This document shows positions 7,098 to 58,120 of a stretch of DNA of 64,000 nucleotides, piece after piece. Below the pieces are notes generated by a model. The model had not been told where the DNA came from. It worked only from the letters and a program-made list of their open reading frames with translations, and did not search any database. The translations under genes were made by a program, and so were the position numbers. Source of the DNA: Clostridia bacterium (GTDB lineage Bacteria > Bacillota > Clostridia > Peptostreptococcales > JAAYPU01); NCBI GenBank assembly GCA_016278615.1, contig JADQBM010000042.1, forward strand, positions 1 to 64,000. The letters run 5' to 3'. Numbering within the stretch: position 1 is the stretch's first letter; every line of letters starts with the position of its first letter.

Positions 7098-7117
7098 GAT
7101 TACAACATAATAAAAAA

Positions 7118-7200
7118 ATGGGAGCTGTATTGCGGCTGAGAGGGAATAAGGAAATTCCGACCATTGAACCTGATCTGGATAATGCCAGCGTAGGAAGAAG
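7118..7200 (+). promoter_or_regulatory. TPP riboswitch (THI element)
   Basis: Contains the diagnostic conserved blocks of the thiamine pyrophosphate aptamer: GGGAGC, GGCTGAGAGG, then TGAACCTGATCTGGATAATG and CCAGCGTAGG. It is followed at once by a terminator hairpin, so high TPP should stop transcription of the downstream uptake genes. This fixes their role in thiamine or precursor transport. Confidence 0.97.
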
Positions 7201-7210
7201 CGAGTATACT

Positions 7211-7241
7211 ACTGTTGCCTATTCTGTGCAACAGTTTTTTT
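7211..7241 (+). terminator. Riboswitch-controlled terminator
   Basis: Perfect 8-bp stem ACTGTTGC (7211-7218) / GCAACAGT (7228-7235), nine-base loop, then six or more T. It is the likely expression platform of the TPP riboswitch. Confidence 0.92.
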
Positions 7242-7310
7242 GTTTGCATTTACTTACGTTCTAGACTTAAAAGAGGAATGGGAATTATTAGAATTGAAAG
7301 GAGTAAAAAA

Positions 7311-7595
7311 ATGATTCATGTAAGCTTACAAGTATTACCCGTGGTGCCAGAAAACCAAATATATTCAGTGGTGGATAAAGTGATTGAATTCATTGAAAAA
7401 AGCGGTGTAAGATATGAAGTTGGCCCTATGGAAACTACCATGGAAGGTGAATTGGATGTGCTACTCAAAATCGTAAAAGAGGCACAAGAAATATGTGTCA
7501 ACGAAGGGGCAAGCAGGGTAGTCTCTATAGTAAAAATAGACTATAAACCGGAGGGTGTGACAATAGATGAGAAAGTGGCAAAATACAGAAAATAA
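7311..7595 (+). CDS. Thiamine-binding protein, MTH1187/YqgV family
   Basis: A 94-residue cytoplasmic protein of the MTH1187/DUF77 family (thiamine-BP), a ferredoxin-like fold that binds thiamine or HMP-like ligands. It shows the usual VSLQVLPVVP start, GVRYEVGPMETTMEGE centre and RVVSIVKIDYKP end. The ATG at 7311 follows AAAGGAGTAAAAAA. An upstream in-frame TTG at 7215 lies inside the riboswitch terminator and is not credible. It is the first gene of the TPP-controlled operon and overlaps the permease gene by 29 bases. It may buffer or sense the imported ligand. Confidence 0.88.
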   Translation: MIHVSLQVLPVVPENQIYSVVDKVIEFIEKSGVRYEVGPMETTMEGELDVLLKIVKEAQEICVNEGASRVVSIVKIDYKPEGVTIDEKVAKYRK

Positions 7596-8328
7596 CTTCT
7601 GGTCGGTGGCTTTCATCATTTTTATTGTTTTCCTTTGGGAGCTAATGATTCATATATATGCCATACCGGTATACATTTTACCGGCACCCTCCAAGATTCT
7701 ATTGACTTTAATGGAGTCAAAGGAGGTTTTATGGGAACATACAAAAATAACATTACTTGAAGCTTTGAGTGGATTTTTCATTGCAATGGTTTTAGGCATT
7801 CTCATTGCAGGGATGATGAATCGGTTTAGAATTTTAAAGAAGATTTTCTACCCTATTTTGGTTATTTCACAGACCATCCCCATTATCGCCATTGCACCTC
7901 TTTTTATGATTTGGATGGGATTTGGTATTCAGCCAAAGATTGTTATTGTCATCTTAGTTTGTCTTTTTCCTATTGCAGTCAATGTAACAGAAGGTTTGTC
8001 TGTTGTTGATAGGGACTTGGTTAATTTATTAAAAGTAATGAAAGCCAATTCATGGCAAATATTTCATAAAGTAGAACTACCTGCTGTAATGCCAGCGTTT
8101 TTCTCAGGTCTTAAAATTTCAGCAACTTATAGTATTATGGGGGCCGTTATTGCAGAATGGATTGGGGCTAAAAAAGGTCTAGGAATCTATATGACAAGAG
8201 CCATGAGTTCGTTTCGTACAGAGGCTTTATTCGCAGACATTATAATTATCATTGTATTAAGTATTGGATTATTCAAGTTTATAGAATGGTTAGAAAAAAA
8301 AGTAATGCCCTGGACAATTATAAAATAA
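7567..8328 (+). CDS. thiX: ABC transporter permease for thiamine precursor (ThiX-type)
   Basis: A 253-residue BPD-type inner-membrane permease with about six hydrophobic segments and the EAA loop region near residues 155-180 (NLLKVMKANSWQIFHKVELP). It belongs to the SsuC/TauC/ThiX group. With the ThiY-like binding protein and ThiZ-like ATPase that follow, it forms a pyrimidine (HMP or formylaminopyrimidine) importer, as established for thiXYZ in other Firmicutes. The ATG at 7567 lies inside the end of the upstream gene, with GGAGGG at 7552-7557, so translation is probably coupled. TPP-riboswitch control supports the substrate; exact ligand is inferred. Confidence 0.85.
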   Translation: MRKWQNTENNFWSVAFIIFIVFLWELMIHIYAIPVYILPAPSKILLTLMESKEVLWEHTKITLLEALSGFFIAMVLGILIAGMMNRFRILKKIFYPILVISQTIPIIAIAPLFMIWMGFGIQPKIVIVILVCLFPIAVNVTEGLSVVDRDLVNLLKVMKANSWQIFHKVELPAVMPAFFSGLKISATYSIMGAVIAEWIGAKKGLGIYMTRAMSSFRTEALFADIIIIIVLSIGLFKFIEWLEKKVMPWTIIK

Positions 8329-8343
8329 TAAGGAGTGATACAA

Positions 8344-9339
8344 ATGCTTGGAAAAGTAAAATTTGTTTTAGCAGTTTTTTTATTAATGCTAATTTTTTCT
8401 GGATGTGCCACATTTGACGAAAGTAGTAATGAGATTGCCTTAAAAGAAATTACCCTATCACTGGATTGGACACCCAATACCAACCACACAGGCCTTTATG
8501 TAGCCATGGATCAAGGTTACTATAAAGAGGCAGGATTAGAGGTTGAAATCATACAACCTGCAGGGGGAACGGCTGAACAGTTAGTAGCAGCTGATCAGGC
8601 CCAATTTGGCATTAGCTATCAAGAGAGTGTTACTTTTGCAAGGTTGCAAGGTATTCCTATTGTCTCTATTGCATCCATTATTCAACATAATACTTCAGGT
8701 TTCGCATCTCTCAAAGAAAAAGGAATTGAAACACCTCAAGATTTTGAAGGTAAAAAATATGGGGGGTGGGGTTCTCCAGTTGAGGAAGCGACATTGAAAG
8801 CACTAATGGATAAATATGGTGCAGATGTTAGGAAAGTAGAGATTATTACAAGCGGCGATGTGGACTTTTTTGCTGCCAGTGAGCAGGACGTTGATTTTGC
8901 TTGGATTTTTGAAGGCTGGACGGGAATAGAAGCTCGTATCAAAGGCATAGACTTAAACTATATAGATTTGGGACAGGAAAATGAAGCCCTTGATTATTAC
9001 ACACCTATTATCATTACAAATGAACAAAATATTAATGAAAATCCAGATTTAGTTCGATCTTTTATGGCAGCAACCACTAAGGGTTATGAGTACGCCGTGA
9101 AAAATCCAGAGGAATCTGCGGAAATTTTGTTAAGTCATGCACCAGAGTTAGATAGGGAACTGGTTGTTGAAAGTCAGAAGTTTCTAAGTGATAAGTATCT
9201 GGCAGAAGCAGAAACATGGGGCATTCAGAGAGAAGAAGTATGGGAAAGATATACAAATTGGCTGTATGAAAATGAATTAATAGATGAAAAAATAAATGTA
9301 AAAGAAGCTTTCACCAATGATTTTTTGCCTGAAAGATAG
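8344..9339 (+). CDS. thiY: Pyrimidine-precursor-binding lipoprotein (ThiY-type, NMT1 family)
   Basis: A lipoprotein of about 331 residues. Its signal peptide ends at a lipobox (LIFSGC), so it is anchored outside the membrane. The mature part is an NMT1/THI5-like periplasmic-binding fold: ITLSLDWTPNTNHTGLYVA at the start, then EVEIIQPAGGTAEQLVAA, GISYQESV and GKKYGGWGSP. WTPNTNHTG is typical of the ThiY/THI5 subgroup. The ATG at 8344 is chosen because AAGGAG (8330-8335) precedes it at proper spacing; the GTG at 8335 falls within that site. It delivers substrate to the ThiX permease. Confidence 0.9.
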   Translation: MLGKVKFVLAVFLLMLIFSGCATFDESSNEIALKEITLSLDWTPNTNHTGLYVAMDQGYYKEAGLEVEIIQPAGGTAEQLVAADQAQFGISYQESVTFARLQGIPIVSIASIIQHNTSGFASLKEKGIETPQDFEGKKYGGWGSPVEEATLKALMDKYGADVRKVEIITSGDVDFFAASEQDVDFAWIFEGWTGIEARIKGIDLNYIDLGQENEALDYYTPIIITNEQNINENPDLVRSFMAATTKGYEYAVKNPEESAEILLSHAPELDRELVVESQKFLSDKYLAEAETWGIQREEVWERYTNWLYENELIDEKINVKEAFTNDFLPER

Positions 9340-9373
9340 ATTATTATGTTTGGCAAGAAGGGGATAATATAAT

Positions 9374-10165
9374 ATGACACCAAAAATCCAAATGTTAAAG
9401 ATTCGAAAAGATTTTAAATCTTCCCAAGAACTTCTGAAGGTCTTAGGCGATATCAGTTTGTTTGTGAATCCAGGTGAGTTTGTTTCAATTATTGGTCCCA
9501 GTGGATGTGGTAAAAGTACGGTTTTTCAAATTCTTACGGGGCTTGAGACATATGATGAGGGTCAAATAAAAATTGATAATATTCCATTAGAGAAGTGGCA
9601 TAAAAAAATGAGCTATATGCAGCAAAAAGATCTTTTAATGCCATGGAGAACCGTTATAGAGAATGTTCTTTTGCCTTTAGAGATTCAAGGAGCCAAAAAA
9701 AAGGATGCTTTAAACAGGGTGAAAGAGTTGCTTCCTGTTTTTGGATTGGACGGATTTGATAATGCGTATCCCCATCAACTATCTGGTGGGATGAGGCAAA
9801 GGGCAGCACTACTTCGGACTGTTCTCACAGATAGTGAGATTATGCTTTTGGATGAGCCTTTTGGAGCACTAGATGCCATCAATAGATCCCTAATGCAACA
9901 GTGGCTCCTTGAAATATGGGAAAGGTTCACCCACTCTGTTCTTTTCGTGACCCATGATATTGAAGAAGCTATTTTTCTTTCGGATCGAGTTTATGTCCTG
10001 AGTCAAAGACCAGCGAAGGTCGTAAAGGAAATTACCATTGATTTTCCAAGACCTCGAAAGAAAGAATTCTTAGTCTTACCAGAATTCTTAGAATATAAAA
10101 AAAGTGTGCTAGCTGCACTGGAACCCAGACAAGAGGCAATCCCCTTTATAGCAGGAAAGGAATAG
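9374..10165 (+). CDS. thiZ: ABC transporter ATPase for thiamine precursor (ThiZ-type)
   Basis: A 263-residue ABC ATPase with Walker A GPSGCGKST (about 43-51), Q-loop in YMQQKDLLMPWRT, signature LSGGMRQR (about 139-146), Walker B IMLLDEPF and H-loop VTHDIEEA. The QQKDLLMPW stretch is typical of SsuB/TauB/ThiZ ATPases. It powers the ThiX permease. The gene follows thiY by 34 bases, and its stop overlaps the region just before the next start. Confidence 0.9.
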   Translation: MTPKIQMLKIRKDFKSSQELLKVLGDISLFVNPGEFVSIIGPSGCGKSTVFQILTGLETYDEGQIKIDNIPLEKWHKKMSYMQQKDLLMPWRTVIENVLLPLEIQGAKKKDALNRVKELLPVFGLDGFDNAYPHQLSGGMRQRAALLRTVLTDSEIMLLDEPFGALDAINRSLMQQWLLEIWERFTHSVLFVTHDIEEAIFLSDRVYVLSQRPAKVVKEITIDFPRPRKKEFLVLPEFLEYKKSVLAALEPRQEAIPFIAGKE

Positions 10166-11923: not shown

Positions 11924-11980
11924 TTGAATATATTGTAATAGGAATTAAAGAGTGCTATACTTTTAATTAATTGAAAAACA

Positions 11981-12122
11981 TATCATGTTTAAGGGAAAAG
12001 GGTTCAATGCCCTTGCTGTAGTCGCAGCTGTAACCAGTGATGAGAATCATATAATGCCACTATCGAAAGATGGGAAGGCGTGATTCAAAGATGACCTGGA
12101 AGCCAGAAGACCTGGCGTGATA
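11981..12122 (+). promoter_or_regulatory. Cobalamin (B12) riboswitch
   Basis: Closing pair TATCATG (11981-11987) / CGTGATA (12116-12122) surrounds the conserved blocks of the adenosylcobalamin aptamer, including GCCACT, GGGAAGG and the B12 box AGCCAGAAGACCTGGC (12101-12116). It precedes a terminator and the ECF/DUF4430 genes, so those should be repressed when B12 is plentiful. Confidence 0.95.
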
Positions 12123-12222
12123 TTCTTCAAATCATTTCCGACACTTAGAGAGATTGAAGAGATATGTCTGAAGATGTATTGACGTACATCATACTCATTC
12201 ATGTTTGGTGCCTTAGTGTTCA

Positions 12223-12257
12223 AAACCTCTCTATATATAATTAATAGAGGGGTTTTT
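12223..12257 (+). terminator. Terminator under cobalamin riboswitch control
   Basis: Stem AAACCTCTCTAT / ATAGAGGGGTTT with an AT-rich loop, then a T run ending about 12257. It lies 100 bases after the aptamer and just before the first gene. Confidence 0.88.
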
Positions 12258-12283
12258 TATTTCGTCTATAAAGGAGAATTCCA

Positions 12284-13213
12284 TTGAAAAAAATCTTTTT
12301 ATCATTAGCCCTATTGAGTCTAATAAATGTAGGATGCCAAGGCAACTTGGAAAATAGTTTTGACCAGGCGCAAATAATCATTTCAAGGGATTTTGGAAGG
12401 GAAGTTATATCTCAAAGACTTGTGGACATACAAGAAGGTACTGCGCTTTTGGATGTAATGGAAGAAAACTTTCAAGTGGAGACTGCTTACGGTGGCTCCT
12501 TCATAAATAGTATTGATGAACTGCAATCTGGTTTTACTGGCAAGAAAAACCATGAAAAGTTGGATTGGTTTTTCTATGTTAATGGCATTTTGTCTCAAAT
12601 AGGTTCAGGAGATTATGAGTTAAACCCAGAAGATTTGATTGTATGGGACTATCATGATTGGGACAAGGCGCCCTATCTTTCCAGCATTGTAGGGGCATAT
12701 CCCAGTAATTTTGTAAAAGGCTATGGCACACCTCTTGAACTGAAGATTATGTGTTCTGAAGGGTATGAGGATGAGGGGGAAAACTTGAAAGAATATTTAT
12801 CTGAAGAAGGGGTATCAAATGTTGTGGTTTCCAAAATAAATGATGAGATTCTTAAGGAAGGTCAGTCCAACATAATGGTCATTGGCTTGTGGGAAGATAT
12901 TTCAAAACATGAACAACTGAAGGAAATATATGATCACAGAGAAAAATCAGGCCTTTTTTTTGAAATAGGTGATGATATAAAAGTATTGAATCAAAATGGA
13001 GAAATTGCAGCAACTTATGAACAAGGAGCGGTAATGGTATCCGTGCTCAATGGATATGATGTTATGTCCACGATTTGGTTGATTACAGGAAATGAGGAAA
13101 AAGACATAAAAGAAAGTGCAAGGCTGCTTTATAAAAATCCTGATGCCATAAGAGGCATGTTCTCTGTATTTGTATCAGATAATCAGTTGATAAAATTGCC
13201 ATTTATTCAATAG
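12284..13213 (+). CDS. DUF4430 lipoprotein, putative cobalamin-binding component
   Basis: A 309-residue lipoprotein. The signal peptide ends at a lipobox with Cys18 (LINVGC). Residues about 45-125 form a DUF4430 (transcobalamin-like C-terminal) domain, with TALLDVM, DWFFYVNGI and GDYELNPEDLIVWDYHDW. The rest (about 130-309) is a less familiar domain containing GDDIKVLNQNGE. As the first gene after the cobalamin riboswitch, it is probably the extracellular B12- or cobinamide-binding part of the importer. The TTG start follows AAAGGAGAATTCCA. The ligand is inferred from the riboswitch and the domain, not shown. Confidence 0.85.
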   Translation: MKKIFLSLALLSLINVGCQGNLENSFDQAQIIISRDFGREVISQRLVDIQEGTALLDVMEENFQVETAYGGSFINSIDELQSGFTGKKNHEKLDWFFYVNGILSQIGSGDYELNPEDLIVWDYHDWDKAPYLSSIVGAYPSNFVKGYGTPLELKIMCSEGYEDEGENLKEYLSEEGVSNVVVSKINDEILKEGQSNIMVIGLWEDISKHEQLKEIYDHREKSGLFFEIGDDIKVLNQNGEIAATYEQGAVMVSVLNGYDVMSTIWLITGNEEKDIKESARLLYKNPDAIRGMFSVFVSDNQLIKLPFIQ

Positions 13214-13223
13214 GAGATAAATT

Positions 13224-13910
13224 ATGATGAGACTCCATCCAATGACCATGATATCTTTTCTTACCATTCTATTTTTCATGATATTGCTATACAACAACCC
13301 AATATATATTCTATCCATATTGGTGTTTTTAGCTGTGTTAACAAGTATTGTGAAAGACAACAAGAAGCTTAATAGTATGATGAGGTATTGTTTCTACAAT
13401 GTGTTGATTATTATGATTATTAATCCACTTCTGTCTCGAGAGGGTCAAACAATACTATTTCAAAGTCATAGATTACCCATAATAGGTAGAATAAAAATTA
13501 CAGGTGAGGCTTTAGCTTATGGTGCAAATATGGGGCTGAAATTGGCTTGTATAGTATTGGTTTTTATTATATATGGCATGATGACCCATAAGGATGACAC
13601 CTTTAGTTTCTTCTCAAAATTTGCTCACAAGTTGACCATAACGTTTTCCATGACAGTCAATATCATTCATCGATTAAAAGTTGAGACAACCAGAGTGAAG
13701 GAAGTTATGGAAATGAGAGGGGTAAATTTTTCGGAAAAAAAATTAATAAAACGAATTGAAGCTTACTACCCTTTATTAAAAGTCATTTTTGTCTCGGCTT
13801 TGGAAGGTTCCATTGATAGAGCAGAGGCCTTGCATTCCAGAGGGTATGGAAAACACAAAAGAACTAGTTATGTCTATTTAAAGATGTCATCATGGGATTA
13901 TTTTTGTTAA
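13224..13910 (+). CDS. ecfT: ECF transporter T component (EcfT), frame ends early
   Basis: The first 228 residues of an energy-coupling-factor transmembrane T component: four hydrophobic segments, then the two Arg-Gly coupling motifs MRGVNF and SRGYG that contact the ATPases. The frame stops right after SSWDYFC, where T components normally enter their last membrane helix. That helix is encoded in the -1 frame from the same spot (see 13892-14107). The break coincides with a T5 run (TATTTTTG). A sequencing or assembly indel, a real mutation or programmed -1 slippage are all possible. Joined, the protein would be about 294 residues, close to family size. Confidence 0.85.
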   Translation: MMRLHPMTMISFLTILFFMILLYNNPIYILSILVFLAVLTSIVKDNKKLNSMMRYCFYNVLIIMIINPLLSREGQTILFQSHRLPIIGRIKITGEALAYGANMGLKLACIVLVFIIYGMMTHKDDTFSFFSKFAHKLTITFSMTVNIIHRLKVETTRVKEVMEMRGVNFSEKKLIKRIEAYYPLLKVIFVSALEGSIDRAEALHSRGYGKHKRTSYVYLKMSSWDYFC

Positions 13911-14107
13911 TTATTTCCGCAATGCTTTTTTTGTTTTTGCTGTTAGGGATTATGAATCATGTAGGAGACTATCGCTTTTATCCCCAGCTTCAAAGCTTTA
14001 AAGATTTGGACTTTTTATGGTTAGTCCTATTGGATTGTATATTTGTAATGACACTATTATATGTTTGGGGGTGCAGGCATTGGAAATTTTTAAGATACAA
14101 AACTTAA
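13892..14107 (+). pseudogene. C-terminal membrane part of EcfT in the -1 frame
   Basis: Reads FLLIISAMLFLFLLLGI from the point where the EcfT frame breaks and carries two hydrophobic segments, ending 27 bases inside the ATPase gene. It has no ribosome binding site of its own at ATG 13892. The simplest view is that it is the end of the T component and is reached by a one-base frameshift. Independent translation is unlikely. Confidence 0.6.
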
Positions 14108-15699
14108 CTTACTTCTATCCAGAAAAGCAAGAGCCTGCTGTAAAAAATATCAACTTAACGGTTAATGAAGGGGATTTCATTCTTCTTTTAGGAGAATCTG
14201 GCTCAGGAAAATCCACCTTAGGAAGAATTTTTAATGGCATCGTTCCAGAATTTTATGGGGGGTCAATCAGTGGGCAGGTTGACGGTAATGCTTCGGAAGT
14301 AGGTATGGTATTTCAGGACCCGGAAAAACAGTTGATTATGGACAATGTTGAAAGAGAAATTGCTTTTGGTCTTGAAAATAGGGGAATGGAGTATTCTCTC
14401 ATGAAAAAGCGTGTTATGGAAACCCTGAGCTTTCTCAATATAGGAGAAATAAAGAATCAAAACACTTATGAACTCTCAAGTGGGCAGAAACAAAAAGTAG
14501 CCGTAGGGACTACCCTGGCCATGGGACACCCTTGCATTGTTTTTGATGAGCCTACTTCTCAGCTGGATCCTGCTGCTGCACATGAAATACTTCATGTCAT
14601 AGAAAGATTAAACAAAGAACTTGGCTACACCATTATTTTAATCGAGCAAAGAATTGACCGATGCTTTCACTTGGCCGATAGAATCATATTTATGAAGGAA
14701 GGAGAAATAGCCTTTGATGGAATACCTCAAAACTTTACTCAGTGGAGTAAAGTAAATGAATTTGATTTTCTGCCTTCTGTTCCAGGTTTATTTTCGCTTT
14801 TAGAATACAAGGAACTTCCAACTACTATAAAGGATGGCAGAAAGGCTCTTAAAGAAATCATGGGCTTGAAAGTAGCGCCCCAAAAAGAAAGAAATTTTAT
14901 GGCCCCATCGAAAGTTCCTGTTGTTACGTTAGAGAAAGCTTCTTATGAATATAGAGGTGGAAAACAAGCCTTAAAAGGGATGACCTTACAATTCGAAGAA
15001 AATGAGATAATAGGGGTCATGGGCCCTAATGGAAGCGGTAAATCAACCTTGTTAAAAATGATTGGAGGTCTCTTAAAACCTTCTTCAGGGAAAATTTCAA
15101 TAGAAGCAAAAGTAGGATATTTGTCTCAGAACCCCAATGATTACCTTTTCAGTGATTCTGTATATGAAGAGCTTAAATTCACTTTAGATATGAATAAAAT
15201 AAAAAAGCATGACAGAATCCATCGTGTTTTAACAGATTTAAAATTGAACCAATTTAAAGATAGGAATCCCAGAGATTTAAGTGGAGGTGAAAAGCAGAGA
15301 GTTGCTCTTGCTTCTGTTTTAGTTTCAGAGCCGCAAATCATTTTATTGGATGAACCCACCAGAGGATTGGACCGAAAATTAAAGGATGCATTAGGGAAAG
15401 TGATTCAATCACTTCAGCAAGATGGAAAAACCATTGTTATTGTTACTCATGATGTGGAGTTTGTTGCAAAGTTTTGCACGAAAACTTGTTTCATTTATGA
15501 TGGAGCTGTAGTGGAGATGGCACCTACTTATAAAGCTTTATCCTCAGGAATTTATTACACCACTCAAATGAAGAAATTATTTCATGGTTTAAGTGACCAG
15601 GTTTTGACCATTGAGGACGCAATGAATTTTATTACAGAATGTCAGAGAAAAACGGAAGAAGAGAGATTAGAGATTTTAACTAAAATCTCTAATCTGTAG
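14080..15699 (+). CDS. ECF transporter fused ATPase (A1-A2)
   Basis: About 539 residues with two complete ABC ATPase halves in one chain. Half 1 has Walker A GESGSGKST, signature LSSGQKQK and Walker B CIVFDEPTS; half 2 has GPNGSGKST, LSGGEKQR and IILLDEPTR. Separate EcfA1/EcfA2 subunits are more usual in Firmicutes, but fused double ATPases are known. I start at TTG 14080, served by GGGGGTG (14067-14073); the more upstream ATG at 14017 lacks a site and lies deep in the EcfT tail. It powers the T/S membrane pair. Confidence 0.88.
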   Translation: MEIFKIQNLTYFYPEKQEPAVKNINLTVNEGDFILLLGESGSGKSTLGRIFNGIVPEFYGGSISGQVDGNASEVGMVFQDPEKQLIMDNVEREIAFGLENRGMEYSLMKKRVMETLSFLNIGEIKNQNTYELSSGQKQKVAVGTTLAMGHPCIVFDEPTSQLDPAAAHEILHVIERLNKELGYTIILIEQRIDRCFHLADRIIFMKEGEIAFDGIPQNFTQWSKVNEFDFLPSVPGLFSLLEYKELPTTIKDGRKALKEIMGLKVAPQKERNFMAPSKVPVVTLEKASYEYRGGKQALKGMTLQFEENEIIGVMGPNGSGKSTLLKMIGGLLKPSSGKISIEAKVGYLSQNPNDYLFSDSVYEELKFTLDMNKIKKHDRIHRVLTDLKLNQFKDRNPRDLSGGEKQRVALASVLVSEPQIILLDEPTRGLDRKLKDALGKVIQSLQQDGKTIVIVTHDVEFVAKFCTKTCFIYDGAVVEMAPTYKALSSGIYYTTQMKKLFHGLSDQVLTIEDAMNFITECQRKTEEERLEILTKISNL

Positions 15700-15719
15700 T
15701 AAGTTGGAGGGAATGAAGG

Positions 15720-16379
15720 ATGAATTATGGGGTCCTATCCGGAATTATATTAATAATTTTATTAATATTAGTTTTTATATCCTATGAGAGAAGGAATACT
15801 TCTTTAAAAGAAATATCGTTAATAGCAACCTTGTCTGCCTTAGCAGGAATTGGACGGGTACCTTTTGCTGCTTTACCCAATGTGCAACCCACGACTTTTT
15901 TGGTAATTGTATCCGGATATGTTTTAGGTCCAAGATATGGATTTGTGGTGGGGGCCCTTGCCACCCTTGTATCCAATACATTTTTAGGGCATGGACCTTG
16001 GGAGCCATGGCAAATGATTGCTTGGGGGCTGGTTGGATTCAGTTCAGGACTTATAGGACGAGTGAAGAAAAAACCATCCCGTTTATTTTTAAGTGTTTTT
16101 GCATTTTGCTGGGGTTTCGCTTTTGATTATATGATGAATTTGTGGCATTGGTTGTTCTTTATATATCCATTGAATTTAAAAAGTTTTATCGCTATAAATG
16201 CAGCATCCTTTTATCTGGATATGATGCATGCTACGGGTAATTTCATTTTTGCATTCTTTTTTGGAAAGGACTTTATACGTATTTTAGGCCGGTTTAATAA
16301 AAGATTAACCTATACAGAAGTGAACGCATTTAAGAAACCTGAAACATTGGGAAAAGAGTTTAAAAATCGGTCAAATTGA
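15720..16379 (+). CDS. ECF transporter S component, probable cobalamin-type
   Basis: A 219-residue membrane protein with about six hydrophobic segments and the S-component features: ISLIATLSALAGIGRV (short-side-chain helix for T contact), a GPRYGFVVGALATLVSNTFLG block and GHGPWEPWQMIAW. In ECF importers the S subunit binds the substrate in the membrane. Riboswitch control and DUF4430 neighbours point to a corrinoid. The family assignment within S components cannot be fixed by eye. ATG 15720 follows GTTGGAGGGAATGAAGG, 21 bases after the ATPase stop. Confidence 0.82.
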   Translation: MNYGVLSGIILIILLILVFISYERRNTSLKEISLIATLSALAGIGRVPFAALPNVQPTTFLVIVSGYVLGPRYGFVVGALATLVSNTFLGHGPWEPWQMIAWGLVGFSSGLIGRVKKKPSRLFLSVFAFCWGFAFDYMMNLWHWLFFIYPLNLKSFIAINAASFYLDMMHATGNFIFAFFFGKDFIRILGRFNKRLTYTEVNAFKKPETLGKEFKNRSN

Positions 16380-16404
16380 CATAGCAGAAAGAGGAGGGTT
16401 TAAA

Positions 16405-17712
16405 ATGAAAAAAAAGATTGTATTGACCATGGTGCTTATACTTCTTTTGTCAAGTATGGTTTATGGTGCAACTATAGAAGCAACTGCACAATATCTGGAA
16501 AAGCAAAAGCTTGATCACTGGGGAATTTTAGCACTTTATAACAGTACAAATAATACCATTAGTAGAAGTCTTGAAGAAGTAGAATCAGAGTTAATGACTG
16601 ACTATGAAGCCTATCTTTTAGGCGCTACTGCATTAAGAAAAAATGTCCTGAAAGTCGTAGAAAAGATATCAGATTCCCAAAGAACCAACGGCAAGTTTTC
16701 TGATTACATAGACGGAACAGGTGACGATATGGTCAATGCACATATCTGGGGAGTTATCTCATTATATACTGCAAACTATGAGGGTTATGATAAGGGCAAA
16801 GCATTACAATGGCTCAAAGAAAATCAGAATAAGGATGGTGGGTTTTCTGTTTATGCGGGTACGAGTATTTCCGATTTAGACATGTCTGCCATGGCCTTAA
16901 TTGCTTTTGATATTTTAGGATTGGACCACAATGATCAAGAAGTAAAGCAAACACTTGCCTATTTAGATAGTAATATAAGCAAGAAAGAAAGCTGTGAATC
17001 CTATGCTTGGTATATATTAGCCAGGGTAAAGTTGGGGTTAGATATAGATGAAAGCTTGTATGAGGGTCTCTTAAAACATAAGTTGCAAGATGGTTCCTTT
17101 AAGCACTTTGTATCTTTAAAGAAATCAAACTATATGGCAACTTGGCATGGTCTTATGGCTCTTACAGATTATAATAATAAGATTTCTGTATTTGATAAGC
17201 TTCACAATGAATCTGGGTTTGTAGATTTAGGGACAACGGATAATCAATACAAAGAGATCATGACCCTTGTAAAGAAAGGCATTATTTCAGGATACTCAGA
17301 TAACACTTTTAGACCCAATGCATCTGTTAAAAGGGGAGAATTTTGTAAATTTCTTGTTTATGGTTCAGGGCTTCAAAATCAAATAGGTAGAGAAACATTT
17401 GATTTTGAAGACTTAAAAGGGCATTGGTCCAATAAAATTGTCAAAGTGGCAGTAAACAAGCAATGGGTTCAGGGGGTGTCAAGTAACCGATTTGCTCCAG
17501 AGGACAAGATTAAGGGATCAGAAATTGCAGCTATGCTTGTGAGAGTCAAGGGCTTTGACGAAGAAGCTGCTGCTATTAAAGGAAACAATTGGTATGATGG
17601 TTATGTTCAGGTTGCATCGGAGCATGGACTTTTATATACCAATTTCAATCCCAACGGGTATGCGACCAGAGCACAGTGTTCGGAAGCGGTTTATAAACTC
17701 ACCGAGAATTAA
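16405..17712 (+). CDS. Secreted alpha/alpha-toroid protein with SLH domains
   Basis: 435 residues. The signal peptide (1-22, ending VYG) is followed by an alpha/alpha-toroid (prenyltransferase/terpene-cyclase-like) region of about 250 residues with the repeated pattern QWLKENQNKDGGFS and LDMSAMALIAF. The C-terminal third carries SLH domains (KGIISGYSDNTFRPNASVKR, GHWSNKIVKVAVNKQWVQG), so it should sit on the cell wall. The same toroid fold forms the N-terminal barrel of intrinsic factor and transcobalamin. Being in the cobalamin-riboswitch operon, it may capture or present B12 at the surface (inference). AGAGGAGGG precedes the ATG. Confidence 0.85.
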   Translation: MKKKIVLTMVLILLLSSMVYGATIEATAQYLEKQKLDHWGILALYNSTNNTISRSLEEVESELMTDYEAYLLGATALRKNVLKVVEKISDSQRTNGKFSDYIDGTGDDMVNAHIWGVISLYTANYEGYDKGKALQWLKENQNKDGGFSVYAGTSISDLDMSAMALIAFDILGLDHNDQEVKQTLAYLDSNISKKESCESYAWYILARVKLGLDIDESLYEGLLKHKLQDGSFKHFVSLKKSNYMATWHGLMALTDYNNKISVFDKLHNESGFVDLGTTDNQYKEIMTLVKKGIISGYSDNTFRPNASVKRGEFCKFLVYGSGLQNQIGRETFDFEDLKGHWSNKIVKVAVNKQWVQGVSSNRFAPEDKIKGSEIAAMLVRVKGFDEEAAAIKGNNWYDGYVQVASEHGLLYTNFNPNGYATRAQCSEAVYKLTEN

Positions 17713-17790
17713 GATTAAGGAGAATTTTGTTTCACAAAATCTTCAATATGTCATTGCATGTAGAGAGGCAATCTTTTAGAAATGACGAGG
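17705..17790. repeat. Partial MITE-like repeat and small palindrome
   Basis: TTAAGATTAAGGAG plus the hairpin ATTTTGTTTCACAAAAT and CTTC match the left half of the repeats at 11780 and 43933. It is followed by a second element with GTCATT (17750-17755) / AATGAC (17781-17786), reminiscent of the TGTCATTGCGA-type dispersed repeats of Clostridia. It fills the gap between the two large surface-protein genes. Confidence 0.55.
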
Positions 17791-17844
17791 GAGTGAATCT
17801 CTACACACACTTATATTATTTGTAATTACAAAGGAGGCGACAAA

Positions 17845-20800
17845 ATGTTTTATAAAAAGAACCAAATGAAAAAAATTATTACCTTTTCTATAGCACTCAT
17901 TATGATTTTTTCTCTACTACCCATAAACAATAGCAACGTTTTTGCTATTGGAGTGGATTTGGCTCAAATCGCTGTCAGCAATAATTATGCAGAATATCAA
18001 GACGGAACAGAAGTAAAAGATAGCCTAGGGAATATAACAGCCTATGATGTATATGTCCTTGAAAAAGAAGGAGCAGATACAAGTCAATGGGAGAGAAATA
18101 ATACGAATCTTAAAGAAGAAACGCTTGAATTAATAGATAACAATCGAACGGATGCAGGCATAAAAGCACTAGCACAGTATTATTTGGTAACAAAAGAATA
18201 TGAGGACCTAACAAGAACAGCAATGCTAATAAACACTTTGCAAGACCAACAGAATACGACAACAGGTATATTTGGGTATAGTGATATATATAGCAACATG
18301 CCCCTATATGATATGCTCGGAAAAGTCGGAGATTTAAGTGAACTAGATATTGAAGCGTGTAAAACATATGTCATGGAAGAGCAAAATGTAGAAGATCCTA
18401 GCAATACTGAGGTATATGGAGCATGGGGAATAGCACAGTGGTATCAGGATACTGATGGAAGTTGGAAACAAGGTGCTTGGGGACCAGACTTTATAAGTAG
18501 CGTACAAGGAGTAAGGGTACTAAGCTATTTATATGACATAACATCTGATAGCGACATAAACAATAGAAAGAATATCGGATTAGAATGGCTTATGGCGCAA
18601 CAACAAGAAGATGGAAGTTTCATGTTTGCTGATTGGGATGATCCCACAACCAATACGGCAGAAATGATTATCACCTTAGACCAACTCGGAGAAAGAGGGT
18701 CTACAGCTTGGGATAAGGCAGTGAATTATTTAGAAAGCAATGCATTAAATGAAAATAGACAATTTGGGCGTTATGGCGGAATTGGCAATAACACTTTGGT
18801 TTTAGAAGCGTATAGAGTGATTAATGCCGCATCGTTGTCGAATGGGACTGTAATCGGCATCAATATTATTTCAGATGAAACGCCGGTATCAGTAGGTTTA
18901 TCTAAACAGTTTAACACTGAAGCCTATAAGTTTGGCGTAGGGAAGGAAATATTTAATCATGAAAATGTAATCTGGAGTACATCTGATTCAGACATAGCAG
19001 TAGCCAGTGAAGGACTCCTTAAGATCTTTGCGGATGAAGAAGTGATATTAAAAGTTCAGTATAATGAGCTTGAAGATGAAAAAACCATAAGTACAAAATC
19101 GAATCCTTCTATAATCGCTGTCAGCAATAATTATGCAGAATATCAAGATGGATTAGAAGTAAAAGATAGCCTAGGGAATATAACAGCCTATGATGTATAT
19201 GTCCTTGAGAAAGAAGGAGCAGATACAAGTCAATGGGAGAGAAATAATACGAATCTTAAAGAAGAAACGCTTGAATTAATAGATAACAATCGAACGGATG
19301 CAGGCATAAAAGCACTAGCACAGTATTATTTGGTAACAAAAGAATATGAGGACCTAACAAGAACAGCAATGCTAATAAACACTTTGCAAGACCAACAGAA
19401 TACGACAACAGGTATATTTGGGTATAGTGATATATATAGCAACATGCCCCTATATGATATGCTCGGAAAAGTCGGAGATTTAAGTGAACTAGATATTGAA
19501 GCGTGTAAAACATATGTCATGGAAGAGCAAAATGTAGAAGATCCTAGCAATACTGAGGTATATGGAGCATGGGGAATAGCACAGTGGTATCAGGATACTG
19601 ATGGAAGTTGGAAACAAGGTGCTTGGGGACCAGACTTTATAAGTAGCGTACAAGGAGTAAGGGTACTAAGCTATTTATATGACATAACATCTGATAGCGA
19701 CATAAACAATAGAAAGAATATCGGATTAGAATGGCTTATGGCGCAACAACAAGAAGATGGAAGTTTCATGTTTGCTGATTGGGATGATCCCACAACCAAT
19801 ACGGCAGAAATGATTATCACCTTAGACCAACTCGGAGAAAGAGGGTCTACAGCTTGGGATAAGGCAGTGAATTATTTAGAAAGCAATGCATTAAATGAAA
19901 ATAGACAATTTGGGCGTTATGGTGGAGTTGGCAATAACACCTTAATGCTTGAGGCAAATAATACTATTAATGAAGAGCCATTGGTAGCAGGAACCGTAAT
20001 AGAAATGGAGATTCCTTCTTCTGTAGAAATTTCTGTAGGTGATTACCATCAATTCAATCCTGAAGTATATAGATTTGGTTTGGGCTTTAATACCATCGCT
20101 GCAGACTTAGTCCATTGGTCAATAGCATCGAATGGAAATGTTGCTAGCATTAACAGTTCAGGTAGAGTCACAGCACAGGCCAATGGCACAGCTATCGTTA
20201 CTTCAAGATTTGGTAATTTTGAAAAACTAGTAAATATAACCGTCGAGGGAGGAGAAATTCCAGGTAATGCTGAAGAGCAACAAAGTTATGTTAGGATAAC
20301 CATGTATGTATCAGGAATTGATGACGAGGTTATGTATGCGGATGTCCTTAAATTAACAGATGATGAAGGAGAAGGAATTACAGTTTTGGATGCATTAGAT
20401 GCGACGAATTTGAATTATAGATCTAGAGGAGCTTATGTTTATAAGATAGATGGATTATCCGAGAAGGAAACATCTGCGTTATCAGGATGGAAATATAAGG
20501 TAAATAATATGGTTGGTGATGCATCAGCAGACAATTATTATCTTGATAATAAGGATGTAGTCATATGGTTTTATGCGGATGGGCCTTTAGATGAAGGACC
20601 CTCATTAAGTTCATTAATTTCAAATCTGGAAAAAGTACAAGAGGAAGAAGAAGAATCGGTTGATATCAATAAATCAAAAGAAGATAATGAAAAAATGTTG
20701 TCTGATGCTATTAAAAAAGATGGTCAAGCAGTTTTGGATTTAGAGAATAACCCTAATAGCAAGGTCTATCTATCCCCTAAAACTCTAAATGCTTTAGGAG

Positions 20801-21648
20801 AAAATGATCTGCCATTGACTATAAAAAATGATGCAATAAAAATTGAATTCTCACCAGATTCGATTCCAAATCATGTACTAACTCAAGCAAAGGAGCATCA
20901 ATCAGCATCTGTTGAAATAAAGGCGGCCATGATGAGTGAAGAAGAAAAAGAAGAGCTCCTTCGCAAAGCTGATCCAGAAGCTCTGAGAAATTTATTGGAT
21001 GTTGGAGGACAAATCATCGACCTGTCTGCTTATATTGTTTATTCAGATGATGAGGGCGTTATACAAAGAAGAGATAAGATAGAGACTTTTTTTGAACCAG
21101 TAAAAGTGACCATCGCCATAACAGAAGACATGAGTGTAGAAGAGGCGAAAAGAATTACAGGGATCAGATATGAAGTGGATGAGGATGGCAATACAATACC
21201 CGTAAAGTTAGGTGGCATATATGATCCGGAATCCCAAACCATTACATTTTATACAAACCGTTTTTCGTATTACGGAGTGCGACAGGCGAAGGAATTACAG
21301 AAAATCATTTTGCAGATTGATGAACCACAGATTACCATAAACGATGAAGTTCAAGATATAGATGTGGCTCCCGTTATCATGAATAGCCGTACCATGGTGC
21401 CACTTCGCTTTGTTTCTGAAGCATTAGGTGCAGAAGTTCAATGGATAGGGGAAGAAAGAAAAGTTATTATTATTCATGATGGCCAAACAATAGAATTGGT
21501 AATAGGAGAGATTTCTGATCCCAGTTTAGATGTACCTCCCGCCATTATGAACAATCGAACCATGGTACCCATTCGATATATTTCAGAAAAGCTAGAGGCG
21601 AATGTCCTTTGGATTCCTTCTATCAGAACAGTAGAAATTGTTAGATAA
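17845..21648 (+). CDS. Large secreted DUF4430 / alpha-toroid protein, intrinsic-factor-like
   Basis: 1267 residues. After a signal peptide (about 1-35) come two almost identical units of about 280 residues (about 41-318 and 423-700): alpha/alpha-toroid repeats with GLEWLMAQQQEDGSF and GAWGIAQWY. Each is followed by a bacterial Ig-like stretch. Then a DUF4430 domain (about 815-910; DALDATNLN, SGWKYKVNN, NKDVVIWFYADGP), an acidic helical linker, a mixed domain, and a C-terminal copper-amine-oxidase-N pair (NSRTMVPLRFVSEALGA, NNRTMVPIRYISEKLEA), which often anchors to the surface. Toroid plus DUF4430 is the architecture of vertebrate B12 carriers. It is probably transcribed from the cobalamin-riboswitch operon. 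AAAGGAGG precedes the ATG. Confidence 0.85.
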   Translation: MFYKKNQMKKIITFSIALIMIFSLLPINNSNVFAIGVDLAQIAVSNNYAEYQDGTEVKDSLGNITAYDVYVLEKEGADTSQWERNNTNLKEETLELIDNNRTDAGIKALAQYYLVTKEYEDLTRTAMLINTLQDQQNTTTGIFGYSDIYSNMPLYDMLGKVGDLSELDIEACKTYVMEEQNVEDPSNTEVYGAWGIAQWYQDTDGSWKQGAWGPDFISSVQGVRVLSYLYDITSDSDINNRKNIGLEWLMAQQQEDGSFMFADWDDPTTNTAEMIITLDQLGERGSTAWDKAVNYLESNALNENRQFGRYGGIGNNTLVLEAYRVINAASLSNGTVIGINIISDETPVSVGLSKQFNTEAYKFGVGKEIFNHENVIWSTSDSDIAVASEGLLKIFADEEVILKVQYNELEDEKTISTKSNPSIIAVSNNYAEYQDGLEVKDSLGNITAYDVYVLEKEGADTSQWERNNTNLKEETLELIDNNRTDAGIKALAQYYLVTKEYEDLTRTAMLINTLQDQQNTTTGIFGYSDIYSNMPLYDMLGKVGDLSELDIEACKTYVMEEQNVEDPSNTEVYGAWGIAQWYQDTDGSWKQGAWGPDFISSVQGVRVLSYLYDITSDSDINNRKNIGLEWLMAQQQEDGSFMFADWDDPTTNTAEMIITLDQLGERGSTAWDKAVNYLESNALNENRQFGRYGGVGNNTLMLEANNTINEEPLVAGTVIEMEIPSSVEISVGDYHQFNPEVYRFGLGFNTIAADLVHWSIASNGNVASINSSGRVTAQANGTAIVTSRFGNFEKLVNITVEGGEIPGNAEEQQSYVRITMYVSGIDDEVMYADVLKLTDDEGEGITVLDALDATNLNYRSRGAYVYKIDGLSEKETSALSGWKYKVNNMVGDASADNYYLDNKDVVIWFYADGPLDEGPSLSSLISNLEKVQEEEEESVDINKSKEDNEKMLSDAIKKDGQAVLDLENNPNSKVYLSPKTLNALGENDLPLTIKNDAIKIEFSPDSIPNHVLTQAKEHQSASVEIKAAMMSEEEKEELLRKADPEALRNLLDVGGQIIDLSAYIVYSDDEGVIQRRDKIETFFEPVKVTIAITEDMSVEEAKRITGIRYEVDEDGNTIPVKLGGIYDPESQTITFYTNRFSYYGVRQAKELQKIILQIDEPQITINDEVQDIDVAPVIMNSRTMVPLRFVSEALGAEVQWIGEERKVIIIHDGQTIELVIGEISDPSLDVPPAIMNNRTMVPIRYISEKLEANVLWIPSIRTVEIVR
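17967..18795 (+). repeat. Intragenic near-identical duplication, unit 1
   Basis: About 830 bases repeated at 19113-19941 with a constant offset of 1146 bases. The differences I can see are few (for example GACGGAACAG against GATGGATTAG near the start, and one silent AAA/GAG change). Such identity at silent sites means recent duplication or ongoing gene conversion, and it makes the locus prone to recombination and misassembly. Confidence 0.95.
19113..19941 (+). repeat. Intragenic near-identical duplication, unit 2
   Basis: Second copy of the unit at 17967-18795, in frame within the same gene. Divergence starts abruptly after GGCAATAACAC at the 3' side and before AATCGCTGTCAGC at the 5' side. 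Confidence 0.95.
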
Positions 21649-56560: not shown

Positions 56561-58120
56561 TTGAAAAATATATTATTACTATCCGTAGAAGATGAAGAAA
56601 ATAGTATCTGTATTAACACATATAAAGATGCCGCGACCCTTACATTAACAGCATATCTAAAGGAAAAAGGACATAATGTAAAAATAATTGATGAAGATAT
56701 CAAAGACATAGACTATACAGACATAGAGAAGTTCAAGCCTGATGTAATAGGAATACATGGTTACATAGAATCTTTATTTAATAAAGCATTGCCAGAAATT
56801 AAAAAGAACAACCCTAATACATATATCTGTATGGGATTAGGACAACCTGATTCAAACATTAAAGAAATATTGAAGAAGTATCCTATAATCGACTTTGCTG
56901 TATATAATGAGGCTGAATTAACCTGGCATAATCTTTTAAAATGTTTGAAAGATAATAAGAGTCTTGAAAATGTTAAAGGCCTCATATATAGAAAAAATGA
57001 TGACTTCATTACTACTGAACCTGAAGAATTATTAGATGTTAATACATTGCCATTTATAGCCTTTAATCAAGACCACAAAAAAAGAACATTAAACATACAA
57101 ACTTCAAGAGGCTGCACGAATCATTGTTCCTTTTGTACCATGCGGTCACAACAAAGAAAATATCGGATGAAGGATGTTAAAAGAACCGTTGATGAAATAG
57201 AATACTTTGTCAGAGAACATAACAAAACAAAAGTTCATTTTTCAGATTATAGTTTTGAAGATCCTAATAAGAATAGATTAAAAGCCTTACTACAGGAAAT
57301 AATCAACAGAGACCTTAACATTATGATGTCAGGTAATTTCAGGCCAAACTTTATTAAGAAGTTAGACGCTGAATTATTAGACTTATTATTAAAAGCAGGA
57401 TTTACAATGGCTTTTGTGGGAGTTGAAGCAGCCAATGAAGAAGATTTATTGCTTTATAATAAGCAATCTACTGTTCAAGATGCTCATAAAATTATAAATG
57501 CTTTTAAATGGTCGGGTATCTATACAAAAATTGGATTTATTAATTTTAATCCGTACTCTACTTTAGACAGCTTGAAGAAAAATATTGATTTTCTTGATTG
57601 GTACGGATTTGCAAACTTTTTGAATGTTAAATCTACACTAGGGATAATTAAAGAGACTCCTATATATAATTCTATCGAAAAGGAGTTGATGACTATAGAT
57701 GATTTAGGTAGAATAACCTTTAAATTCAAGAATCCAGAGGTTGCTAAAGTATATGAATTTGTAAATTGCTATTTTAACTACCTTAAAAATGAAAAAGTTA
57801 TCCAAGACTATGAGGAAGAATTCAGGGATATATTAAATATTTATGAGTTAAGTCTTAAGTTAAAAAGAAGAGGAGATATGGAACCTTCATCATGCGCTTT
57901 AGACTATTACCATCAAATCAAACACATGTCTGATGCCATGAGTCACTATATAGCAAGTTGGTTTAAAAAACTCATAGATTTAGCTGATAAAGGTTTTAAT
58001 GAGAAAGAAGCGCAATTAATATCTATTACTACATTAAGCTCTGACTTCATCCAGGAGACCACAGAAATAATGAGAGAGAAAAGAAAAAGATTTAATAAGA
58101 CATTTGGTATAGAGGATTAA
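56561..58120 (+). CDS. Cobalamin-binding-type radical SAM enzyme
   Basis: 519 residues. An N-terminal B12-binding-type Rossmann domain (about 1-135; TLTAYLKEKGHNVKIIDEDI, FKPDVIGIHGY) lacks the D-x-H-x-x-G motif. The radical SAM barrel starts RGCTNHCSFC (Cys triplet C-x3-C-x2-C) and has FVGVEAANEEDL. The C-terminal 130 residues are helical and unfamiliar. Class-B-type radical SAM enzymes of this layout methylate or rearrange substrates; target unknown and no precursor peptide is evident nearby. The TTG start follows AGAGGTGAG. Cargo of the mobile element. Confidence 0.88.
   Translation: MKNILLLSVEDEENSICINTYKDAATLTLTAYLKEKGHNVKIIDEDIKDIDYTDIEKFKPDVIGIHGYIESLFNKALPEIKKNNPNTYICMGLGQPDSNIKEILKKYPIIDFAVYNEAELTWHNLLKCLKDNKSLENVKGLIYRKNDDFITTEPEELLDVNTLPFIAFNQDHKKRTLNIQTSRGCTNHCSFCTMRSQQRKYRMKDVKRTVDEIEYFVREHNKTKVHFSDYSFEDPNKNRLKALLQEIINRDLNIMMSGNFRPNFIKKLDAELLDLLLKAGFTMAFVGVEAANEEDLLLYNKQSTVQDAHKIINAFKWSGIYTKIGFINFNPYSTLDSLKKNIDFLDWYGFANFLNVKSTLGIIKETPIYNSIEKELMTIDDLGRITFKFKNPEVAKVYEFVNCYFNYLKNEKVIQDYEEEFRDILNIYELSLKLKRRGDMEPSSCALDYYHQIKHMSDAMSHYIASWFKKLIDLADKGFNEKEAQLISITTLSSDFIQETTEIMREKRKRFNKTFGIED

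Follow-up and report, generated by a model that had tools for sequence, protein, structure and literature searches.

A riboswitch-headed operon of a Clostridia genome with a predicted ECF cobamide importer and toroid/DUF4430 surface proteins

Does a bacterium of the class Clostridia catch vitamin B12 on its surface with relatives of the vertebrate B12 carriers and pass it on to a membrane importer? This question is raised by an operon in the stretch of DNA analysed here (the window: 64,000 nucleotides, positions 1 to 64,000 of contig JADQBM010000042.1, assembly GCA_016278615.1). A cobalamin riboswitch is followed by six genes, all on the same strand (+), which encode a DUF4430 lipoprotein, the transmembrane component EcfT, a fused A1A2 ATPase and an S component of an energy-coupling factor (ECF) transporter, a secreted alpha/alpha-toroid protein with SLH domains and a secreted protein of 1267 amino acids. 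The domains and the gene order, already listed in the original prediction, were upheld by Pfam matches across the six genes. We read the operon as a putative cobamide (vitamin B12-type) importer with surface capture by the toroid/DUF4430 proteins, and from the sequence comparisons we give this reading a probability of about 80%. Of its two parts, import of cobamides by the operon appears very probable, and binding of corrinoids by the surface proteins may be called likely.

The riboswitch aptamer (RF00174, 11969..12133, +) was matched over the full length of the model with 85.6 bits (E 1.1e-19), compared to a curated score of 31.5 bits, and is accompanied by an expression platform. It does head the operon as had been proposed, but the original prediction let it begin at 11981, 12 bases too late. 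An RF00174 scan detected no other cobalamin riboswitch in the 3.5-Mb genome. The expression platform contains an intrinsic terminator (12222..12256, +; RNA fold z -2.51). Because its 13-bp stem and T6 tail are located between the aptamer and the first gene, encoding the DUF4430 lipoprotein, transcription termination is the most likely mode of action of this riboswitch. The motif TAGAGAG near 12146 could act as antiterminator by pairing with the 5' arm of the terminator. A candidate sigma-70 promoter (TTGTAA-17-TATACT with TG before the -10 element, 11933..11961, +) was found in a consensus scan; it is weak, such sites being no commoner than in shuffled sequences.

The S component (15720..16379, +), encoded by a single-copy gene in this genome, has 6fnp_A as its only PDB match (E 3.6e-11, residues 27-197). 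This structure shows CbrT from ECF-CbrT, a characterised B12 transporter (PMC5997447), which in Lactobacillus delbrueckii imports cobalamin as well as cobinamide (Santos et al. 2018, PMC5997447). An ECF module with an S component of the CbrT type is common to both systems. In L. delbrueckii, however, cbrT is part of an nrdJ-cbrS-cbrT-pduO cluster, whereas here it belongs to an operon with its own T component, a fused A1A2 ATPase and three surface proteins.

A need for such an importer is indicated by the gene content of the genome, the completeness of which is estimated at 99%. Seven B12-binding matches were detected, including a MetH-like protein, the B12 domain of a methylmalonyl-CoA mutase and several methyltransferase corrinoid proteins; the genome also codes for B12 radical-SAM proteins. 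Single-family searches of the genome found neither CbiC, a marker of corrin-ring synthesis, nor CobS, nor a BtuF-type binding protein (PF01497), which is present in 13 of 14 control genomes. As corrinoid enzymes are present and the tested markers of synthesis and salvage are absent, the cell would have to import cobamides, and the operon is, judged by gene content, the only recognised route of cobamide uptake in this genome. B12 control and cobamide import, both part of the original prediction, thus gain support from the CbrT match, the lone riboswitch, the presence of corrinoid enzymes in a genome where CbiC, CobS and a BtuF-type protein were not found, and the conserved gene order described below. 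A further possible cobamide user in the window is a 521-amino-acid radical-SAM-type protein with a weak B12-binding domain (56633-56926).

Proteins of the CbiQ and CbiO type below a cobalamin riboswitch might also belong to a CbiMNQO-type cobalt importer feeding B12 synthesis, and in C. difficile cbiMNQO is indeed preceded by a cobalamin riboswitch (PMC11477304). Yet the T component of our operon reaches 34.2 bits where the CbiQ equivalog cut-off is 111.8 bits, CbiM is not encoded in the operon, the S component is CbrT-like and the missing CbiC speaks against a synthesis to be fed. We consider a cobalt importer very improbable and rejected it because of the CbiM and CbiQ results and the CbrT-like S component.

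Concerning the other parts of the ECF module, the fused EcfA1-A2 ATPase (14017..15699, +) is intact and comprises two ABC_tran domains (TIGR04520, 356.7 bits), whereas the EcfT/CbiQ component (13224..13910, +; CbiQ 52.8 bits in Pfam) is truncated by a -1 frameshift. Frame inspection and an alignment with a sibling genome traced this to a single base lost from the T run near 13895. This leaves EcfT with 228 amino acids, compared to 293 in the sibling genome and 283-326 in the loci surveyed below. The lost C-terminus can be read in another frame up to about 14100, where it reaches into the ATPase gene, and aligns with the sibling EcfT. As this remainder continues there and the sibling ATPase starts at a position analogous to TTG 14080, the latter is probably the true start of the ATPase and that at 14017 spurious. 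The frameshift may be a sequencing error or a mutation. If it is real, the transporter might be decaying and the operon non-functional in this strain, for which the broken frame and the shortened EcfT would speak. We regard this as unlikely, since all other genes of the operon are intact, the EcfT remainder has kept good conservation in its shifted frame, as would fit a break that arose in sequencing or only very recently, a further EcfT gene on contig 126 of the same genome could power CbrT, and the cell appears to require imported cobamide.

The first gene of the operon (12284..13213, +) encodes a lipoprotein of 309 amino acids with a TTG start, a lipobox-like VGC and a DUF4430 domain (61.1 bits in Pfam). 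For its C-terminal approximately 180 amino acids (12660-13213) searches of Pfam and NCBIfam gave no match; this part is retained in the sibling genome and probably also at the surveyed locus L059. A lipoprotein-pair scan of genome contigs returned one locus, in a metagenome-assembled genome labelled Anaerovorax odorimutans. Kinship of DUF4430 with the beta domain of transcobalamin had been claimed for this operon and was supported by a profile search: with profile A5, built from 62 bacterial DUF4430 domains, the best five matches in the PDB were all transcobalamin-2 (best E 0.0023). The sparser profile A1 gave no matches in the PDB.

The fifth gene (16405..17712, +) encodes the secreted toroid protein with two SLH anchoring domains; in Pfam its toroid gives a marginal Prenyltrans/SQHop match (26.3 bits). 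The AlphaFold2 model of this toroid (predicted local distance difference test, pLDDT, 93.9) displays the alternating helices of an alpha6/alpha6 toroid. The 1267-amino-acid protein encoded by the last gene (17845..21648, +) consists of two toroids, recognised by profile homology, followed by Big_2, DUF4430 (42.1 bits) and two Cu_amine_oxidN1 domains; a weak SQHop_cyclase_N match is the only other one that Pfam gives. The two toroid units (17967..18776 and 19113..19922, both +) are near-identical repeats with 4 differences in 810 bases: 806 of the first 810 bases are identical, and sharp divergence begins in the linkers beyond. The counterpart in the sibling genome has one toroid unit. This and the near-identity of the copies point to a duplication or gene conversion of recent date, if not to an assembly error. 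A search with the toroid unit of the 1267-amino-acid protein matched the sibling only, so toroids of this kind are highly divergent.

The best structural matches of the SLH protein model are RabGGTase beta and squalene-hopene cyclases (50 matches listed), and a toroid sequence profile compared with the PDB gave the same nearest relatives, squalene-hopene cyclases and prenyltransferase beta subunits. Taken literally, these closest solved sequences and folds would make the toroid proteins secreted terpene cyclases or prenyltransferases. The acid motif DXDD of class II cyclases is, however, lost, the aligned site reading D-x-D-hydrophobic-T (DLDM in the window toroid), and the proteins are secreted, surface-anchored and predicted to be B12-controlled. 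With the fourth Asp of DXDD present in 1 of 44 toroid members, we rejected the cyclase reading, which appears the least credible of the alternatives.

Like intrinsic factor, transcobalamin and haptocorrin, the 1267-amino-acid protein carries an alpha/alpha toroid followed by a beta domain of the DUF4430 type in one chain, and DUF4430 is homologous to transcobalamin. Unlike these carriers it has two toroids as well as added Ig-like and surface domains, and Cobalamin_bind finds no match in its toroids. By domain content, transcobalamin has a closer bacterial counterpart in a protein of another surveyed locus (L056:12224-16411, -), which unites Big_2, Cobalamin_bind (PF01122, 51.4 bits), DUF4430 and SLH in one chain and is encoded in a CbrT operon headed by a riboswitch. 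A toroid profile that included the window toroid and was built without this protein recovered it at 1.6e-27. Because of this recovery and its Cobalamin_bind match, the window toroids seem to belong to a family with carrier-like members, yet their own distance from the carriers is large. The original prediction of kinship between the toroids and the alpha domain of the carriers is therefore supported for the wider family; for the window toroids it is not supported directly, as they lack a Cobalamin_bind match and their model is nearest to prenyltransferases and squalene cyclases. The link to the carriers would be better tested on the L056 protein than on those of the window, since it bears both carrier signatures.

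DUF4430 was found in 159 of 393 genomes of the class. For a survey of the neighbourhood we used 40 DUF4430 loci of about 20 kb each, nearly all from separate genomes and chosen without regard to their neighbours. CbrT was detected within about 10 kb in 31 of them, EcfT in 30, A1A2 in 32 and a toroid in 30. All five parts were present at 23 of the 40 loci, and the order DUF4430 lipoprotein, EcfT, A1A2, CbrT recurred across loci. The gene-order survey in other genomes that had been suggested as a check thus revealed a conserved arrangement, and the window is, by this comparison, one example of an arrangement apparently common in Clostridia. At ten loci (L051, L052, L056, L058, L060, L074, L080, L082, L083, L085) the A1A2 ATPase and CbrT are found in one fused open frame of 806-912 amino acids.

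A riboswitch of the cobalamin clan was present in 22 of 28 stretches scanned, and in 20 of the 28 it heads the cluster or lies inside it on the same strand, according to a comparison of positions. The background is about 176 such riboswitches in 98 genomes (summed), corresponding to about 0.014 expected per 20 kb. Three loci in which no CbrT was detected in the vicinity (L050, L053, L071) have the riboswitch at the head of toroid/DUF4430 genes; at L060 it precedes a toroid-DUF4430 gene, with the ECF genes on the opposite strand. These four riboswitches indicate that the surface proteins are probably B12-controlled in their own right.

Several observations weigh against capture and import of cobamides by the operon. 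Cobalamin_bind (PF01122) was matched neither by the window toroids nor anywhere else in this genome (E 0.1), and B12 carriers are absent among the 50 structural matches listed for the SLH protein toroid. The AlphaFold2 model of the second toroid, Big_2 and DUF4430 is of low confidence (pLDDT 48.5) and was not used. Structure prediction, named in the original prediction as a check against intrinsic factor, hence provided the alpha6/alpha6 toroid; it provided neither a carrier among the listed matches nor a reliable toroid-DUF4430 model. The frameshift of EcfT in this assembly has to be added to these points. It might be that the ECF part imports cobamide while the B12-controlled toroid/DUF4430 proteins serve otherwise, for instance by attaching to polysaccharide or other cells or by binding a different ligand. 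The missing Cobalamin_bind signature, the Ig-like, SLH and other surface domains in the wider architectures, the occurrence of DUF4430 in surface proteins of very large size, too, and the 9 of 40 loci without nearby CbrT would be in line with this. But the toroid/DUF4430 genes at L050, L053 and L071 possess their own cobalamin riboswitch where CbrT is missing, the family has members positive for Cobalamin_bind, and transcobalamin is the first PDB match of the DUF4430 profile. We consider a different function of the surface proteins rather unlikely.

If the operon serves capture and import of cobamides, as we prefer to read it, low cellular cobalamin would allow transcription past the intrinsic terminator, the riboswitch presumably being an OFF switch. 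On the outer side, corrinoid would be caught by the SLH-anchored toroid protein, the 1267-amino-acid protein and the membrane-tethered DUF4430 lipoprotein; it would probably be clamped between toroid and DUF4430 beta-grasp domain in the manner of transcobalamin and may be handed inward to CbrT via the lipoprotein. By homology to ECF-CbrT, the CbrT-like S component, driven by the EcfT/EcfA module, would then move it across the membrane. A more tentative version, which we think doubtful, takes the SLH toroid protein, lacking a beta domain, and the DUF4430 lipoprotein, lacking a toroid, as a transcobalamin clamp split into two chains: the toroids might relay corrinoid through the wall, and DUF4430 of the lipoprotein might close on it and dock on CbrT. 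To our knowledge, ECF systems are normally thought to work without a partner resembling a substrate-binding protein; the split clamp, if true, would be such a partner. If the surface proteins bind corrinoid, they would form a Gram-positive extracellular capture chain for B12 feeding an ECF transporter, and the proposal that intrinsic factor and transcobalamin come from bacteria could be tested on living bacterial homologues. As the arrangement is common in Clostridia, it would also bear on competition for B12.

The arrangement was already predicted in 2007, and the operon is a further case of it. Burroughs, Balaji, Iyer and Aravind (PMC1796856) described a bacterial transcobalamin-type SLBB domain, corresponding to DUF4430, with toroid fusions on either side, and paralogous SLBB pairs whose operons also contain CbiO and CbiQ; their hosts frequently lack B12 synthesis. 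They predicted B12 scavenging and proposed transfer to animals as source of the animal carriers. Secreted DUF4430/SLBB proteins with CbiO- and CbiQ-type genes are found in our operon, too, together with a toroid fusion (the 1267-amino-acid protein), a second SLBB paralogue (the lipoprotein) and a host in which key enzymes of B12 synthesis (CbiC, CobS) were not found. The passages of that account considered here mention neither the CbrT S component nor the riboswitch nor the SLH anchoring, all three documented in our operon, and the window has a twin-toroid protein in addition. In PMC9963975 a lipoprotein is quoted under its database name, 'Additional lipoprotein component of putative cobalamin ECF transporter', which likewise assigns it to a cobalamin ECF transporter; we infer that it is of the DUF4430 type. 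The lipoprotein of the window differs from it by the additional C-terminal approximately 180 amino acids without a Pfam family. Reports of experiments on these surface proteins were not found in the open-licence literature, which omits most subscription journals; the arrangement is of a known, predicted kind.

BtuG and BtuH, the surface B12-capture lipoproteins of Bacteroides (Wexler 2018, as cited in PMC6593275), likewise catch B12 at the cell surface before a transporter takes it over. These have a different fold and belong to an outer-membrane TonB-dependent system, and we claim no kinship with them. Upstream of the operon, the window contains a thiamin pyrophosphate (TPP) riboswitch followed by a putative ABC importer for thiamin precursors with permease, binding protein and ATPase (7108-10165).

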